The notes under the pieces: model-generated
What the model was told of the DNA's origin: nothing
What the model saw: only the letters and a program-made list of their open reading frames with translations
The model's database searches: none
DNA from: an uncultured Acidobacteriota bacterium
Lineage (GTDB): Bacteria > Acidobacteriota > UBA6911 > CAINFC01
Length of the DNA: 64,000 nt
Assembly: GCA_903847975.1 (NCBI GenBank)
Contig: CAINFC010000252.1
Span: 62,001 to 126,000, forward strand
Direction of reading: 5' to 3'
Shown here: piece by piece, positions 22,188-55,781 of the stretch
Layout of the letters: each line of letters opens with the position of its first letter
Position numbering within the stretch: the stretch's first letter is position 1
Made by a program: the position numbers and the translations under genes

Positions 22188-23306
22188 ATGAGCTGGTGGA
22201 AAAAACTCTGGTGTAAAAAAGAGCACCCTGTCGAAAAAGGACCCATCCCGAGACCGGCGGAAACCGGGCCCCCTGCCGCACCGCTTTCATCCGGCCGGCC
22301 GCTAGCTCCCACGGAAGGGGCAGTTACGGTTGCCCCGCCCTGCAAAACAGAGTCCCCCATCGCTTCTTTTCCTCGGGAGGACCGATGGGTGGACTTCGAC
22401 ACCCTGGCCAAAATAAAAGACCAGGCAGACGAAGAGTCCATCCTCCGTCGTATCGGCAGTATTTTTCCGGGAGCAAGCGCCGATGAAGTGCTGTTCCGCT
22501 ACTATCTTTCCCGGGCCATTTATTTCAAGGAGTACTCTCTGCCGACCCTCCCGGCGAGCGCCCACCGGATCCTGGCTTTATCCCACAACATCAACTCTTC
22601 GCTGGTGGATTACCTGGAGGTGATTGAAGTCGACCCCGGGCTGGCCAAAGCCGTATTCCGGCTGGCCAATTCCCCGGCCTATGCGGCGGCTTCGGAATGT
22701 ACCACTCTGGCGCAGGCGGTGGCCCACATCGGGCTACAGGAGGTCGAGAGGATTTCCATGTCTCAAGCCATGGGAAACCGCGTATTCCACATCCGGCACT
22801 ACGAATCCCTGGTGAAGTCGCTGACGAAGCATTTGATCGCTGCCGCCGTCGGCTCCCAGGAGATTGCCAGCCACCAGAACGGACCTGCTTCGGAAGCCTT
22901 CCTGGCCGGCCTTTTTCACGATACGGGCAAGCTGGTCATTCTCAACCTGATCGCCGATGTGCAGAGGAAAAGGAAGCATGCTGTTCCGGCCGGCCTGATC
23001 GAATCCGCCTTTGATGCCTTTCATGTTGCCGTAGGCGAAAACGCCTGTAGGACATGGGGGCTGCCGGACAATCTGATTGCCGCCGTGTCCCAACACCATG
23101 TTTTTCCCATCCCCGATGACCCGCTGACCCGCAGCGTCGTGCTGGGAAACCGTATCGCCCACCTGATCGAATCGGAAAAGCCTTCGCCGGAACCGGAAAA
23201 AGACGATCCCTTCCAGGCCCTTCTGAATTTCGGACCGGAAGAGGTGGCCCGGCTGGTTTCCAAAACCAAAGGGATTCTGGAAGAATTTTCCACGGCGGTT
23301 TCCTAG
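22188..23306 (+). CDS. HDOD-domain signalling protein
   Basis: The 372-residue protein starts with a basic Trp/Lys-rich N-terminus and a Pro/Ala-rich linker to about residue 75. A HDOD domain follows (LPTLPASAHRILALSHNINS ... DPGLAKAVFRLANSPAYA ... VAHIGLQEVERISMSQAM) with an HD pair in LAGLFHDTGKLVI. HDOD proteins act as non-enzymatic hubs in motility, c-di-GMP and stress signalling. The start is 147 bases past rubrerythrin, behind a leader that can fold (TGCGCT/AGCGCA, CTTTCTC/GAGAAAG). An upstream extension to 22125 is unsupported. Confidence 0.8.
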   Translation: MSWWKKLWCKKEHPVEKGPIPRPAETGPPAAPLSSGRPLAPTEGAVTVAPPCKTESPIASFPREDRWVDFDTLAKIKDQADEESILRRIGSIFPGASADEVLFRYYLSRAIYFKEYSLPTLPASAHRILALSHNINSSLVDYLEVIEVDPGLAKAVFRLANSPAYAAASECTTLAQAVAHIGLQEVERISMSQAMGNRVFHIRHYESLVKSLTKHLIAAAVGSQEIASHQNGPASEAFLAGLFHDTGKLVILNLIADVQRKRKHAVPAGLIESAFDAFHVAVGENACRTWGLPDNLIAAVSQHHVFPIPDDPLTRSVVLGNRIAHLIESEKPSPEPEKDDPFQALLNFGPEEVARLVSKTKGILEEFSTAVS

Positions 23307-23375: not shown

Positions 23376-23957
23376 GTGAAACGACGCAATTTTCTGACGA
23401 TTGCGGCCCTGACGGCCGCCTCCTCCTGTTCCCGAACCTCCCCTGCTCCCGGCCTTCGGGTGCTCTCGGGAAAAGAAGCCCGCACCCTGGAAGCCTGGGT
23501 GGAGCGCCTGATTCCCACAGACCAGGATGCCGGCGCCAGGGAAGCCGGTGTGGTCCACTTTATCGACCGCCTGCTGGCCGGATGGCTGAAGCGAAAGCGG
23601 CAGCCCTGGAAATCGGCCCTGGAGGGGATCGACCGGGGTGCCTTTCTGGCCTACGCCAAACCGTTCTATGAGCTGGAGCCCAAAAGGCAGATCGCGCTCC
23701 TGGAACAGATGGAAGCCGGGAAAGCTTCCCGGGAGGCTTTCCCGGATGACGGCGGAAAGGCGGCTTTCGAGCTGGTCCTTTCCTATACCATGATGGGTTT
23801 TTACGGAAATCCCAGGCATGGCGGAAACCGGGACTACGTTTCATGGCAGATGCTGGGCGTCCCGGCGGTTCCCGTACGCGGCCGCCGACATCGCGATGAG
23901 GCCGCCCTGGTGGAAAACGAAAAACCGAATTCCTCTTCCGGAAAAGAAACCCTATGA
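23376..23957 (+). CDS. Gluconate 2-dehydrogenase subunit 3-family protein (Tat-type leader)
   Basis: 193 residues. The N-terminus MKRRNFLTIAALTAASSC carries a twin-arginine-like RRNFL motif and a possible lipobox cysteine. The body matches the subunit 3 (gamma) family: LSGKEARTLEAWVERLIPTDQDAGAREAGV, then FIDRLLAGW, then MMGFYGNPRHGGNRDYVSWQMLGVP. This subunit partners the FAD-binding GMC subunit and guides it through the Tat system. Its stop overlaps the GMC start by 4 bases (ATGA). The final 20 residues are low-complexity. Confidence 0.85.
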   Translation: MKRRNFLTIAALTAASSCSRTSPAPGLRVLSGKEARTLEAWVERLIPTDQDAGAREAGVVHFIDRLLAGWLKRKRQPWKSALEGIDRGAFLAYAKPFYELEPKRQIALLEQMEAGKASREAFPDDGGKAAFELVLSYTMMGFYGNPRHGGNRDYVSWQMLGVPAVPVRGRRHRDEAALVENEKPNSSSGKETL

Positions 23958-25600
23958 GCCTGAGCAAAGTCGATGCGGTCATCATTGGAGCCGGGGCGGC
24001 CGGTCCGATCGTTGCCAAGGAACTGGCGGTCGCCGGCTTCACGGTGGTTCTCCTCGAGCGGGGAAAATACTACGCTCCCTATGATTGTCTGAAGGACGAT
24101 CTCCGCAACCAGAGAACCAGCCTGCTGGGGAACGCGTTCGGCCCGGAAGACGAGGGGCATCCCCGGGTTCTTGTGGACCTCGCCGGTCAGGCGCGCGTTC
24201 TCCAGCCCTACGAGGGTGGCTACAACAACAATGCCGCCTGCGTTGGCGGCGGGACACTGTCTTACGGGGCCATGGCCTGGAGATTTCACCCGCTCGACTT
24301 CCGCATGAAATCGCAATACGGAGCCGTTGCCGGGTCCACCCTGGAAGACTGGCCGATCCGCTACGACGACCTCGAGCCCTATTACGAAAAAGCGGAGTGG
24401 GAAATCGGGGTTTCCGGCGACCTTTCCGGCAATCCCTTTCAGGGACCCCGCCGAAAGCCCCTGCCGATGCCGCCCCTGCCGCCCACCCGGGAGCACCTCC
24501 TGCTGGAAAAAGCGGCCCGGGCTAAGGGCTGGCATCCTTTTTCTATTCCCATGCTGCGCAATTCCGTCCCCTACAACGGCCGTACGGCCTGCATGCGGTG
24601 CCGCTGGTGCGTCGGATTCGCCTGCGAGCTGGACGCCAAGTGCGGCACGCAGAACACCGTGCTGCCGACGGCCCTGGCCACCGGCCACTGCACGCTGCGA
24701 ACGGAATGCACGGCCTGCGAGATTCCGACCGACCGCAAAGGAAACGCCACGGGAGTCCGCTATATCGATGCCGCCGGAAAAATGCAGGAACAGCCGGCCC
24801 GGGTGGTGGTGGTCTCCGCGGCAGCGGTCGAATCGGCGCGGCTGCTGCTGCTGTCCCGGTCCGCGCCCCACGAAAAGGGGCTCGGCAACCGCTACGACTG
24901 GGTAGGGCGCAACTTGCAGGGCCACACCTATACCGGCTGCCTGGGACTCATGGCCGAGGAAACCTACGACGACCTCGGCCCGGGAGCCTCCATCGCCATC
25001 TGCGATTTCAATCACGGCAATCCCGGCCTTACCGGAGGAGCCATGCTGGCCAATGAGTTCATCCGCCTGCCGATCCAGGCCGTCGGGCAGAGACCGGCGG
25101 AAATTCCCCGATGGGGCCCCGGACACAAAGAGTTCATGCGCTCTGCGTACCGGCGGCTGGTCGCCGTGCAGGGCCCGACCCAGGAGATGCCTGTTTTCGA
25201 CGCCCGCATCCAGCTGGATCCGGAAGTCAAAGACAGGTTCGGCATTCCCGTGGCTCGCATGTCCGGCTTCCGGCATGCCCACACCATCGAAATCAGCGAT
25301 GCCATGTCGAAGCGCGCCGAGGAGTGGCTGCTGGCCGCCGGTGCCGTTAAAACCTGGCGGCGGACCTCCGGCCGGGGCTTGTCGGGAGGGCAGCACCAGG
25401 CCGGCACCTGCCGCATGGGACCGGATCCCAAAACCTCGGTGGTGGACCCGAACTGCCGGATTCACGATTGCGACAACGTGTACGTGGTGGACGGCAGCGT
25501 TCACGTAACCAACGGAGGCTTCAACCCGGTGCTCACCATCATGGCCTTGGCATACCGGGCCGGCGAGCATATCCGCACCCAGCTGGGGAGAAACATATGA
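23954..25600 (+). CDS. GMC-family FAD oxidoreductase (gluconate dehydrogenase alpha-like)
   Basis: The 548-residue protein has an N-terminal Rossmann motif (VIIGAGAAGPIVAKELA, G12/G14/G17, then VVLLERG). A GGGTLSYGAMAWRF segment places the flavin, and the C-terminal GMC signature is HQAGTCRMG ... VVDGSVHVTNGGFNPVLTIMALAYR, with the expected catalytic His/Asn region. A CMRCRWCVGFACELDAKC cluster is present, as in other membrane-bound sugar and alcohol dehydrogenases of this group. It probably oxidises a sugar or sugar acid in the periplasm and passes electrons to the co-encoded cytochrome. It overlaps both neighbours by 4 bases. Confidence 0.88.
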   Translation: MSLSKVDAVIIGAGAAGPIVAKELAVAGFTVVLLERGKYYAPYDCLKDDLRNQRTSLLGNAFGPEDEGHPRVLVDLAGQARVLQPYEGGYNNNAACVGGGTLSYGAMAWRFHPLDFRMKSQYGAVAGSTLEDWPIRYDDLEPYYEKAEWEIGVSGDLSGNPFQGPRRKPLPMPPLPPTREHLLLEKAARAKGWHPFSIPMLRNSVPYNGRTACMRCRWCVGFACELDAKCGTQNTVLPTALATGHCTLRTECTACEIPTDRKGNATGVRYIDAAGKMQEQPARVVVVSAAAVESARLLLLSRSAPHEKGLGNRYDWVGRNLQGHTYTGCLGLMAEETYDDLGPGASIAICDFNHGNPGLTGGAMLANEFIRLPIQAVGQRPAEIPRWGPGHKEFMRSAYRRLVAVQGPTQEMPVFDARIQLDPEVKDRFGIPVARMSGFRHAHTIEISDAMSKRAEEWLLAAGAVKTWRRTSGRGLSGGQHQAGTCRMGPDPKTSVVDPNCRIHDCDNVYVVDGSVHVTNGGFNPVLTIMALAYRAGEHIRTQLGRNI

Positions 25601-26652
25601 AGATCCTTTCCCTGCTGATTCTCCTGGTCCTGGCCGGCTGCCTGGCGGTTCCGGCGATCAGCTTTTTCTATGAGTCCGGGGGCGGGGCGGCCTGCTCCCG
25701 CTGCCACGAAATGGGACACCAGTACGAGCAGTGGCTCTCCTCCTCCCACCGGAACATACCCTGCACCTCGTGTCACGGCGAGGCTCTTTCGGGAAGCTTC
25801 CGCTTTCATCTCACCAATGTTCTGCGCGTCCGCGACCATCTGCTGGGAAACGTACCCGAGCCGCTCCGCCTGCGCACCGCGGATTTCCTGGAGATGCAGG
25901 CTCGCTGCGCCGGGTGCCATCGCCAGGAATTCGCCCAGTGGTCCGCCGGGCCCCATTCGGTTTCCTATGAACGGCTTTTCCTGAACGCCGAGCACAACCG
26001 GAAAGAGCCGCCGGTGGACGACTGCCTGCGGTGCCACGGCATGCACTTCGAAGGGGGCATTCGCGATCTGCTGGAGCCCGCCTCCGCCCGCGGTCCCTGG
26101 CGCCTGCGCCAGGAAGAGCTGGCCGGCCAGCCGGCCATTCCCTGCACCACCTGCCACTCCATGCATCGCCCCGGACGACTCCTGGCCCGGTGGCAGACCG
26201 GCTCCCCGCCCGCGGCCCGCTTCCAGGAGCCGGTGCGTCCTTCGGTCGGGTTATTCGACCGCCGCTCGCGGCAGGCGGTTCCGGTATCCCTGCTGCCTCT
26301 TCCCCGGATGCAGGATCGGAATCGGCCCGTGGCCATCAGCCCCGATCCGCGCCAGGCGCTCTGCTATCAGTGCCATGCGCCGCTTTCCGCGGGACAGGTG
26401 CGCTCCGGCGACGACCGCACTCCGACCGGGGTACATGAGGGGCTGAGCTGCTTTTCCTGCCACGACAAGCATCGCCAGACCACCCGGGCATCCTGCGCCA
26501 CCTGTCACCCCAGGCTTTCCAATTGCAACCGTCCGGTGGAAACCATGGACACTACTTTTGCCGATCCCGGTTCGCGGAACAACATCCATTTCGTGAAGTG
26601 CCAGGACTGCCACCCCCAAGGGGTTCCGACGCCGAAGAAAAAAGAGTCCTGA
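25597..26652 (+). CDS. Nine-heme c-type cytochrome (NapC/NrfH-like N-terminus)
   Basis: The 351-residue protein has an N-terminal membrane anchor or lipoprotein signal (LVLAGC, C15) and nine CXXCH heme sites: CSRCH, CTSCH, CAGCH, CLRCH, CTTCH, CYQCH, CFSCH, CATCH and CQDCH. The first part (CSRCHEMGHQYEQWLSSSH ... CTSCHG) resembles quinol-oxidising NapC/NrfH proteins. The start overlaps the GMC stop (ATGA), so the two are translationally coupled. A heme-poor stretch (about residues 190-250) separates five N-terminal from four C-terminal sites. It is the likely electron exit of the dehydrogenase, replacing the usual triheme subunit. Confidence 0.88.
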   Translation: MKILSLLILLVLAGCLAVPAISFFYESGGGAACSRCHEMGHQYEQWLSSSHRNIPCTSCHGEALSGSFRFHLTNVLRVRDHLLGNVPEPLRLRTADFLEMQARCAGCHRQEFAQWSAGPHSVSYERLFLNAEHNRKEPPVDDCLRCHGMHFEGGIRDLLEPASARGPWRLRQEELAGQPAIPCTTCHSMHRPGRLLARWQTGSPPAARFQEPVRPSVGLFDRRSRQAVPVSLLPLPRMQDRNRPVAISPDPRQALCYQCHAPLSAGQVRSGDDRTPTGVHEGLSCFSCHDKHRQTTRASCATCHPRLSNCNRPVETMDTTFADPGSRNNIHFVKCQDCHPQGVPTPKKKES

Positions 26653-26661
26653 TCCCCGGGC

Positions 26662-27675
26662 TCAGCTGTACCGCCCGGGAATGCTTTCTCCGCAGGGGCA
26701 GCGGTTGCCCCGCAGGCTGTTTTCGGTGACGCAGTGCCAGGAGCGGCGTACCAGCAGCTTCTGGCAGCGGGGGCAGCAGGTATGCGCTCCTTCCCCCTCG
26801 ACGTTGCCCTCGTAAACGAAGCGCAGCCCGCTGTTTCGCGCCGTATCCACCGCCTTGCGCAGAATGGCCGGGGCGGTGGGCGGGCGGTCCAGCAGCCGGT
26901 AGTTCGGATGGAACGCGGAAAAATGCAGGGGGGTGTCCGGACCGAGATGGTCATGGACCCAGCCGGATAGCAGCCGGATCATTTCCGGGTCGTCATTCAG
27001 GCCGGGAATGACCAGGCAGGTCACCTCCAGCCAGACTCCGGTCTTGTTCCGCAGCCAGACCAGAGTGTCCAGAACGGGCTGCAGGCGGGCATCGGCCTGC
27101 CGGCGGTAAAAGTCCTCGGAGAAAGCCTTCAGGTCCACGTTGGCCGCATCGACTTCGGCGTAAATTTCCTCCCGCGCCTCCGGGGAAGTATAGCCGTTGG
27201 TCACCATGACGGTCTTCAGTCCGGCTTTCCTGGCCGGCCGGGATATGTCGAGAACGTACTCTCCCCAGACTGTCGGCTCGTTGTAGGTGAAAGCCAGGCT
27301 GGAGCAGCCGGATCGCAGGGCCGCCTGCACCACGTCCTGCGGAGGAACCTTGAGGGTATTCCCCCAGTTCGGGGCTACGTGCGACAGGGACCAGTTCTGG
27401 CAGAACATGCAGCCCAGGTTGCATCCGAAGGTACCCAGCGAATAGGTATAGGATCCCGGATAAAAATGATACAGCGGCTTTTTCTCGATGGGATCGGCAT
27501 GCACCGCAACCGGGCGCCCGTAAGCCAGGGCAAAAAGAGAGCCGCTCCTGTTCTGGCGCACCCGGCAATAACCGGAAGCTCCCTCCTCGATCCGGCAGTT
27601 CCGGGGGCAAAGGTGGCATTCCAGCCAATCGCCCTCCAGCGAACTCCACCACAAGGCTTCTTTGTCCGGAATCAT
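26662..27675 (-). CDS. amrS: AmmeMemoRadiSam-system radical SAM enzyme
   Basis: The 337-residue protein has an N-terminal Cys cluster (LECHLCPRNC, then GYCRVR) and the radical SAM motif C85-NLG-C89-MF-C92. A SLAFTYNEPTVWGEYVLD segment and a C-terminal zinc-ribbon-like tail (CPRCQ ... CPCGE) complete the pattern. This matches the PflA-like AmrS of the AmmeMemoRadiSam gene set, whose substrate is unknown. The usual AMMECR1 and Memo partners are not in the window. The gene is convergent with the nine-heme cytochrome gene, with 9 bases between the stops. Confidence 0.85.
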   Translation of the reverse strand: MIPDKEALWWSSLEGDWLECHLCPRNCRIEEGASGYCRVRQNRSGSLFALAYGRPVAVHADPIEKKPLYHFYPGSYTYSLGTFGCNLGCMFCQNWSLSHVAPNWGNTLKVPPQDVVQAALRSGCSSLAFTYNEPTVWGEYVLDISRPARKAGLKTVMVTNGYTSPEAREEIYAEVDAANVDLKAFSEDFYRRQADARLQPVLDTLVWLRNKTGVWLEVTCLVIPGLNDDPEMIRLLSGWVHDHLGPDTPLHFSAFHPNYRLLDRPPTAPAILRKAVDTARNSGLRFVYEGNVEGEGAHTCCPRCQKLLVRRSWHCVTENSLRGNRCPCGESIPGRYS

Positions 27676-55301: not shown

Positions 55302-55781
55302 CTAGGCCTTCGGCTTGTGTTCGTGGATCCCCTTCTTGACGGCTTCTTCGTAGTTGAAGCTCTTGAAGTTGGCATTGGGATTGCCGGTCGGGCTCTTGGC
55401 GGCATGGCACTTGACGCAGACTTCCTTGCCGGGCTTGGCATTCAATCCGGCCGCTTTGGCGGCGGCGGGATCCTTCATGACCTTCATAGGCATATAGTCT
55501 TTGCCGGCATCATGGCAGGCTTCGCACTGCACGCTCGGGTGGTCGGCGACATTTCCGGTCGCATGGCACTCGATGCATTTCGGGTTCTTCTGTTCCTCCG
55601 GCTTAAGAAGATCAAAAGCCTTGGCATGCTTCGTGGCTGCCCAGGAGGTGGATTGAACTTTATGGCACATCTTGCACTTGGCTGCGCCCACATACTCGTG
55701 ACCCGCCGCGGATACCGTCAATCCGATACCTAATCCAAGGCACAAAATGGCGGCAATGGCGAGCAGAATCTTCTTGTTCAC
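55302..55781 (-). CDS. Tetraheme c-type cytochrome
   Basis: The 159-residue protein has a signal peptide (LLAIAAILCLGLGIGLTVSAA) and four CXXCH sites: CKMCH, CIECH, CEACH and CVKCH. Helical spacers like SWAATKHAKAFDLL and additional histidines fit cytochrome c554/c552-type electron carriers. The start is GTG with GGAGT 7 bases upstream. It is followed by the histidine kinase gene, a pairing that suggests respiratory or redox sensing. No matching reductase is adjacent. Confidence 0.85.
   Translation of the reverse strand: MNKKILLAIAAILCLGLGIGLTVSAAGHEYVGAAKCKMCHKVQSTSWAATKHAKAFDLLKPEEQKNPKCIECHATGNVADHPSVQCEACHDAGKDYMPMKVMKDPAAAKAAGLNAKPGKEVCVKCHAAKSPTGNPNANFKSFNYEEAVKKGIHEHKPKA

Follow-up and report, generated by a model that had tools for sequence, protein, structure and literature searches.

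The closest described systems are dehydrogenases dependent on flavin adenine dinucleotide (FAD), solved as the glucose dehydrogenase BcGDH of Burkholderia cepacia (6a2u, 8grj) and as fructose dehydrogenase (7w2j). According to the relevant sections of PMC6719666, in BcGDH Cys212, Cys218 and Cys222 are the ligands of a 3Fe-4S cluster, His476 and Asn519 form the catalytic pair, and the membrane subunit carries three hemes c; for the hemes of fructose dehydrogenase, potentials of 143, 259 and 545 mV at pH 5.5 are given in a passage of PMC6472588. Here a related operon is described, in which the place of the triheme cytochrome is taken by a protein with nine heme-binding motifs. It lies in a stretch of 64,000 nucleotides from an uncultured Acidobacteriota bacterium (contig CAINFC010000252.1, positions 62,001 to 126,000); this whole stretch is called the window, and the assembly it comes from the window genome.

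The operon consists of three genes, all on the + strand: a small subunit, "sub3" (23376–23957, GTG start, 193 amino acids), a GMC flavoprotein, the catalytic subunit (23954–25600, ATG start, 548 amino acids), and a nonaheme c-type cytochrome (25597–26652, ATG start, 351 amino acids). The two 4-base ATGA overlaps that had been said to join the trio in the initial annotation are present, base for base, at 23954–23957 (sub3/GMC) and 25597–25600 (GMC/cytochrome). The make-up proposed there for the first two genes is equally borne out, by profile scores above cut-off: 98.8 bits for Gluconate_2-dh3 (PF13618; cut-off 23.4) in the small subunit, 83.3 bits for GMC_oxred_C (cut-off 24.6) and 51.3 bits for GMC_oxred_N (cut-off 23) in the flavoprotein. 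On balance, the trio probably encodes a three-subunit FAD complex of the glucose/fructose/gluconate dehydrogenase type, its cytochrome subunit being nonaheme rather than triheme.

Conservation of the arrangement was evaluated by scanning titled genomes with a four-sequence cytochrome alignment as query; the loci discussed are the best 80 of 187 relatives. The gene order, proposed earlier as a feature to be looked for in other genomes, is kept on the same strand in 72 of the 72 loci with a sub3 match; in the remaining eight the contig begins too near the cytochrome, or inside the GMC gene. A GMC gene lies upstream of the cytochrome in 78 of the 80 loci, the other two being cut by contig ends. 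Spacing is tight, with starts chosen by script: the GMC-cytochrome gap is 20 base pairs or less in 63 of 79 pairs, and exactly -4 in 40; the sub3-GMC gap is 20 base pairs or less in 62 of 69, and exactly -4 in 21. Nine CXXCH motifs are found in 82 of 84 cytochrome open reading frames (ORFs), from the 80 titled loci, three other genomes and the window; the two ORFs with seven are L066, truncated where its contig starts, and L070, with an apparently broken frame. That the genes are neighbours by chance, with no functional link, is hardly credible: the cytochrome-less GMC relatives and the one GMC-less cytochrome described below would fit, but order, spacing and overlaps are conserved over many species. 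The sequences thus point to a genuine conserved operon, in which the flavoprotein is ordinary and the cytochrome unusual.

The initial annotation had set the nine-heme protein in the usual place of a triheme subunit, and this holds: no gene with three CXXCH motifs was found in 31 regions scanned by ORF, nor among 872 genes heuristically called in the 80 loci. Besides the nonahemes, these 872 genes include six with two CXXCH and two with six, the latter at L028:4131–5480 and L064:15227–16618.

The carriers, several dozens, are mostly soil bacteria. Locus titles are mostly Acidobacteriota (Bryobacterales, Solibacter, Acidobacteriaceae and others), with three Opitutia (L067, L069, L076). The operon, at 60% identity, also stands on a contig titled Arcobacter (L071), which is probably mislabelled, because the RpoB of its genome groups with Bryobacterales rows. 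In the phylum of the window, searches scored the best five (cytochrome) or best three (GMC) candidates per genome, so that the counts are lower bounds: among 396 sampled genomes at least 4 have the cytochrome, and among 38 of the window's class 2 have it, the window genome being counted in both. The full trio is present also in G192 and G344, both of the window's phylum; there the operon and the genes around it correspond to loci titled Acidobacteriaceae and Terracidiphilus. A plasmid collection searched with the cytochrome gave no match.

The nine CXXCH sites counted in the initial annotation were confirmed in the cytochrome. They are, all on the + strand, CSRCH, followed by EM (25693–25707, residue 33), CTSCH (25762–25776, residue 56), CAGCH (25906–25920, residue 104), CLRCH (26023–26037, residue 143), CTTCH (26143–26157, residue 183), CYQCH (26362–26376, residue 256), CFSCH (26449–26463, residue 285), CATCH (26494–26508, residue 300) and CQDCH (26599–26613, residue 335). 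For alignment, 79 relatives were joined to the window sequence, leaving out ORFs outside 325–385 amino acids, open-ended ORFs and L006 (other strand): the nine aligned motifs are CXXCH in all 80 rows. Seven histidines outside the motifs (H51, H81, H120, H190, H280, H292, H331) are invariant in 80 of 80 rows; most of the nine hemes are therefore probably bis-His. Hemes of this kind tend to low potential.

The AlphaFold2 model of the cytochrome (predicted local distance difference test, pLDDT, 84.7; predicted template modelling score, pTM, 0.80) has one N-terminal helix, predicted to lie in the membrane, at residues 2–27 (25600–25677, + strand), and a hydrophobic N-terminal stretch of 19 residues is found in 74 of the 80 rows. 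The NapC/NrfH-like start proposed earlier also stands: compared with the PDB set, the family profile (80 rows) finds NrfH 2j7a (E 3.7e-7) over profile positions 14–111, corresponding to a segment at about residues 14–111 (25636–25929, + strand), which includes the first three heme motifs; TIGR03153 matches the window protein with E 2.6e-13, but its 50.2 bits are under the cut-off of 134.2 bits. Foldseek, run with the model, places NrfH first (probability 0.99, E 0.018–0.030) as the sole high-probability listing. In the window genome a further ORF of 499 amino acids (L156, at G000:C135:29261), with hydrophobic segments and five CXXCH, weakly resembles the start of the nonaheme.

Structural realignment by VIA is suggestive of a likeness to larger enzymes: Z is 8.0–8.2 for octaheme nitrite reductases (root-mean-square deviation 4.5–4.7, 224–240 residues aligned) and 7.8 for OcwA (4.7, 212 aligned), a cell-surface terminal reductase in the account of PMC6703420. 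These scores, together with a cysteine, C310 (26524–26526), and a methionine, M317 (26545–26547), both invariant in 80 of 80 rows, which possibly act as unusual heme ligands and could mark an odd heme, might suggest that the cytochrome is a separate reductase, similar to octaheme nitrite reductases or OcwA, or that electrons flow in reverse, from menaquinol to a substrate of its own or to the GMC enzyme, which would otherwise be merely co-transcribed; one orphan cytochrome copy, in G022, would also fit. This is judged very unlikely. VIA realigned the 40 top chains of Foldseek itself, and, by the tool's own note, proteins that are not truly related often reach Z near 8; neither phmmer nor profile searches of the PDB set with the cytochrome listed OcwA or octaheme nitrite reductases. 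The uniformity of the nine CXXCH motifs and the linkage to GMC, interrupted only by contig ends, also argue against it.

Among PDB entries, those closest to the catalytic subunit are 6a2u, an FAD glucose dehydrogenase (E 1e-54), and 7w2j, a fructose dehydrogenase (E 1.6e-40). Gluconate, the substrate implied by the name first given to the operon, is not supported by this comparison: the closest solved enzymes act on glucose and fructose. The alignment comprises 42 rows, i.e. 41 of 68 usable relatives and the window. In the segment CMRCRWCVGFAC (24590–24625, + strand), aligned with BcGDH, the cysteines C213, C216, C219 and C224 are the predicted ligands of an Fe-S cluster: C213, C219 and C224 align with Cys212, Cys218 and Cys222 of BcGDH and are invariant over the 42 rows; C216 is kept in 41 of these. 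Since the CX2CX2CX4C pattern holds four cysteines, a 4Fe-4S cluster is possible. H481 (25394–25396, + strand) and N524 (25523–25525, + strand) align with the catalytic His476 and Asn519, and are His and Asn, respectively, in all 42 rows. BcGDH His105, taken there as the covalent FAD ligand, is aligned with Ser103, and Cys213, engaged there in a disulfide, with Met214, while Cys216 is extra in the window protein. By eye, a signal peptide is not evident in the GMC subunit.

The small subunit, in contrast, has a Tat-type (twin-arginine translocation) signal, KRRNFL, and Cys18; its GTG start sits behind a GAGGTGG stretch. In an alignment of 62 of 68 relatives and the window, six with doubtful starts being dropped, both RRx[FLVIM] and a Cys within residues 11–50 are found in 62 of 63 rows, window included. 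With the twin-Arg motif as basis, the small subunit is a putative Tat-type hitchhiker, its export being predicted. Searching the PDB with its sequence, alone and as a profile, gave no credible match; for its AlphaFold2 model (pLDDT 85.1) Foldseek listed nothing under E 1 and VIA nothing above Z 3.0, and the gamma chain of BcGDH was not among the matches listed, by sequence or by fold. In the 8.1-Mb window genome the PF13618 profile finds a single match, the small subunit of the operon itself.

Taken as a mechanism, these features outline a Tat-exported periplasmic dehydrogenase of sugars or glycosides, with FAD, an Fe-S cluster and nine hemes, feeding the menaquinone pool: this is regarded as the moderately probable reading. 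The small subunit would carry the folded GMC subunit through Tat; the latter would oxidise a hydroxyl of a sugar or glycoside, and electrons would pass from FAD to the Fe-S cluster and along the nine-heme chain, to leave at the NrfH-like end, near the membrane, towards menaquinone and then the oxidases. Quinone reduction through a protein of the NapC/NrfH type has a precedent in cytochrome cM552 of ammonia oxidisers. The heme potentials of fructose dehydrogenase suit ubiquinone better than menaquinone; replacing a high-potential triheme subunit with a nonaheme of probably low potential would suit a menaquinone pool. As to markers, MqnC is over cut-off in 9 of 12 genomes (in the window genome it reaches 422 bits, the cut-off being 428.1), MenD is over cut-off in G401 and present in G400 only as pieces below cut-off, while UbiG, the sole ubiquinone marker tried, is over cut-off in none of the 12; COX1 is found in 11 of 12. 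These markers favour menaquinone, which would be a likelier outlet than extracellular acceptors.

Several observations weigh against this reading, the first of them at the putative quinone site. In NrfH, according to a passage of PMC8840924, the quinol heme is a CXXCHXM first heme with a distal aspartate. In the nonaheme family, the corresponding Met is found in 35 of 80 rows, window included, Ile being present in 42 and Leu in 3, and in the family profile (one profile alignment) an Arg stands opposite the Asp that caps the quinol heme of NrfH; for both reasons the known NrfH quinone site does not appear conserved. Moreover, position 328, His in 78 of 80 rows, is Asn in the window. The quinone site data would be in keeping with a variant in which the same complex passes electrons from the nonaheme to a periplasmic carrier, or to a cytochrome-oxidising complex, bypassing the quinone pool. 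Some copies, indeed, adjoin PQQ-type dehydrogenases (6 of 142 first neighbours) or the monoheme cytochrome domains Cytochrome_CBB3 (5) and Cytochrom_C (4), and another multiheme protein with a similar start, L156, is present in the window genome. Such a bypass is nonetheless rather unlikely: a membrane anchor is predicted beside the NrfH-like end, and no fixed fourth gene, suitable as a carrier, is found in the flanks.

The flanks are mixed also in other respects. In a Pfam scan of the 142 first neighbours, taken from heuristic gene calls, the commonest families (PQQ, PQQ_2, DUF2911) reach 6 each, and the largest blastp cluster among flanking genes spans 12 loci; because of these low figures, no fixed clue to the substrate emerges. 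A GH3 cluster in the flanks of six loci (one member checked) is a hint at most.

Further points on the same side come from relatives which lack one of the partners. A GMC profile search of the 396 phylum genomes (E <= 1e-120) found at least 16 places in at least 13 genomes; outside the window genome (G000), G022, G192 and G344, a nonaheme was found in none of the 12 GMC regions. Close kin of the window GMC, above 800 bits, occur without the cytochrome in two genomes of the window's class, once in G019, a one-contig genome, and twice in G025. Their regions are L173, L175 and L176; in L176 the next gene resembles, by eye, an alpha-L-fucosidase. Likewise, in the regions read around plasmid-borne GMCs of Paenibacillus, Deinococcus and Microvirga, a multiheme cytochrome is absent. 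Conversely, a second cytochrome copy in G022 (L186, G022:C660), 39% identical to that of the window, lies on a 4.7-kb contig with no GMC or sub3, and no PF13618 match is found anywhere in the 950-contig assembly of this genome. The cytochrome is, therefore, a frequent but separable partner of the GMC enzyme, since close GMC relatives exist without it in G019 and G025. No nonaheme is present in twelve more regions, which surround other PF13618 matches in five genomes; in ten of them a sub3-GMC pair is present, in some cases fragmentary. In G399, a Solibacteraceae relative, a sub3-GMC pair precedes the gene of a small five-CXXCH protein (L144:2976–5029), to all appearances an independent and different multiheme pairing. 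The plasmid-borne sub3-GMC of Paenibacillus (L087) and Deinococcus (L089) are in a single frame; that of Deinococcus adjoins GH3, sugar phosphate isomerase and Gfo/Idh/MocA genes.

The trees are only partly in agreement with a simple history of the pairing. In a first GMC tree, the GMCs linked to a nonaheme form one group. In a fuller tree, with the G019 and G025 relatives added, three gains or losses are counted (2–4 over bootstrap replicates), one alone being found in 0% of 200 trees, and a fork that takes in both the plasmid GMCs and nonaheme rows is not resolved. The window GMC lies inside a clade of 11 rows (100/99), whose other members are Acidobacteriota loci, mostly Bryobacterales, apart from G022, which belongs to the window's class; in the cytochrome tree, the window is in a matching clade of 14 rows (98). 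Matching clades are as expected for a unit inherited together. Over 36 loci, a mirror-tree comparison gives a correlation of 0.73 for the identities of cytochrome and GMC, not exceeding the 0.78 of sub3 and GMC. The window GMC reaches 74% identity with a Bryobacteraceae GMC, as much as for RpoB, which is unusual in a metabolic enzyme. The RpoB most identical to that of the window genome is from G027, of its own class (75%); identities to RpoB of operon-carrying Acidobacteriota outside this class are 67–71%. Transfer of the whole operon between lineages would be the simplest reading of these sequences. The RpoB tree, from which 2 of 20 genomes with split or partial RpoB were left out, gives little help on this side, being weakly resolved near the window: the latter falls in no starred set, and the unstarred group of eight rows around it (89/99) also contains L063 and an Opitutia row. 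The G037 and G344 rows, with very long branches, are probably in the wrong frame.

The initial annotation had suggested a long electron wire, perhaps to extracellular acceptors. This would make the nonaheme the first part of a conduit to metals, electrodes or humics, and is distinctly unlikely. It would be in keeping with a multiheme cytochrome as such, with the presence of OcwA, itself a nonaheme, among the chains realigned by VIA, and with the Fe(III) reduction described for Paludibaculum, of the Bryobacterales, in a passage of PMC8407742; an outer-membrane beta-barrel, PF25183, is found in 3 of the 142 first neighbours, and in 10 loci a member of a related cluster is no more than four genes away. 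By eye, however, the flanking barrels look like TonB receptors rather than MtrB. MtrB/PioB, the only conduit type searched, is over cut-off in none of the 12 genomes; G022 has a single match, under the cut-off, and the window genome has none, while 14 control genomes also gave none. The N-terminus of the cytochrome is of the membrane type in most rows, no second multiheme protein recurs (among the 872 genes, nonahemes aside, only those of L028 and L064 exceed two CXXCH), and the oxidase marker COX1 is nearly always present. The extracellular wire thus receives no support from these searches.

A broader proposal is that extracytoplasmic sugars or glycosides are oxidised in soil Acidobacteriota by a dehydrogenase wired directly to a nine-heme cytochrome of its own, and that this cytochrome is a new outlet which bypasses the quinone pool and serves periplasmic or extracellular acceptors, perhaps by way of an odd heme associated with Cys310/Met317. 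This is unlikely; if true, sugars could be respired without import.

Within the window, the trio is preceded on the same strand by an HDOD-domain gene, ending at 23306, 69 bases away, and followed by a radical SAM gene (26662–27675) on the opposite strand, so that the cytochrome closes the same-strand run. A scan for promoters and terminators found no promoter-like site, and 4 terminator-like sites versus 3.6 in shuffles. A small protein with four CXXCH, similar to cytochrome c554 (PF13435 over cut-off), is encoded at 55302–55781 on the - strand.

Compared with the known systems, the operon appears to be a variant of the GMC dehydrogenase complexes, neither a gluconate dehydrogenase nor an NrfH. 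With BcGDH and fructose dehydrogenase it shares the GMC subunit with its His/Asn pair and three Fe-S cysteines, the small subunit with a Tat-type signal and the presence of a cytochrome partner; it differs from BcGDH in having nine motifs for three hemes, in the Ser103, Met214 and Cys216 positions described above, and in a small subunit unmatched to the gamma chain. Gluconate 2-dehydrogenase, after whose subunit 3 PF13618 is named, also has a GMC subunit, but its cytochrome subunit is another protein; the operon is not filed under this name, because the triheme feature fails. The NrfH and NapC/NirT quinol dehydrogenases have a similar first part and a single N-terminal membrane helix, but four hemes versus nine; the window protein is below the TIGR03153 cut-off and has no aligned counterpart of the quinol-heme Asp. 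OcwA and the octaheme nitrite reductases, aligned by VIA at Z 7.8–8.2 over 212–240 residues, are larger, with 483–520 residues in the structures. The plasmid sub3-GMC proteins of Paenibacillus, Deinococcus and Microvirga have GMCs 45–51% identical to that of the window; those of Paenibacillus and Deinococcus differ in having the sub3 and GMC domains in one reading frame. Among the matches listed in open-licence PMC text, no description of a GMC dehydrogenase with a nine-heme partner was found. Multiheme cytochromes abound in Acidobacteriota: a survey of metagenome-assembled genomes from wastewater, in passages of PMC8100337, reports proteins with at least eight CXXCH in all its genomes, the substrates of most multiheme cytochromes there being unknown. 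By linking a widespread family of nine-heme proteins to one defined flavoenzyme, the operon allows the electron donor of this family to be tested. Complexes of a related kind serve, as mentioned in parts of PMC6719666 and PMC6472588, for direct electron transfer at electrodes: a natural nine-heme version may be of interest for sensor work.

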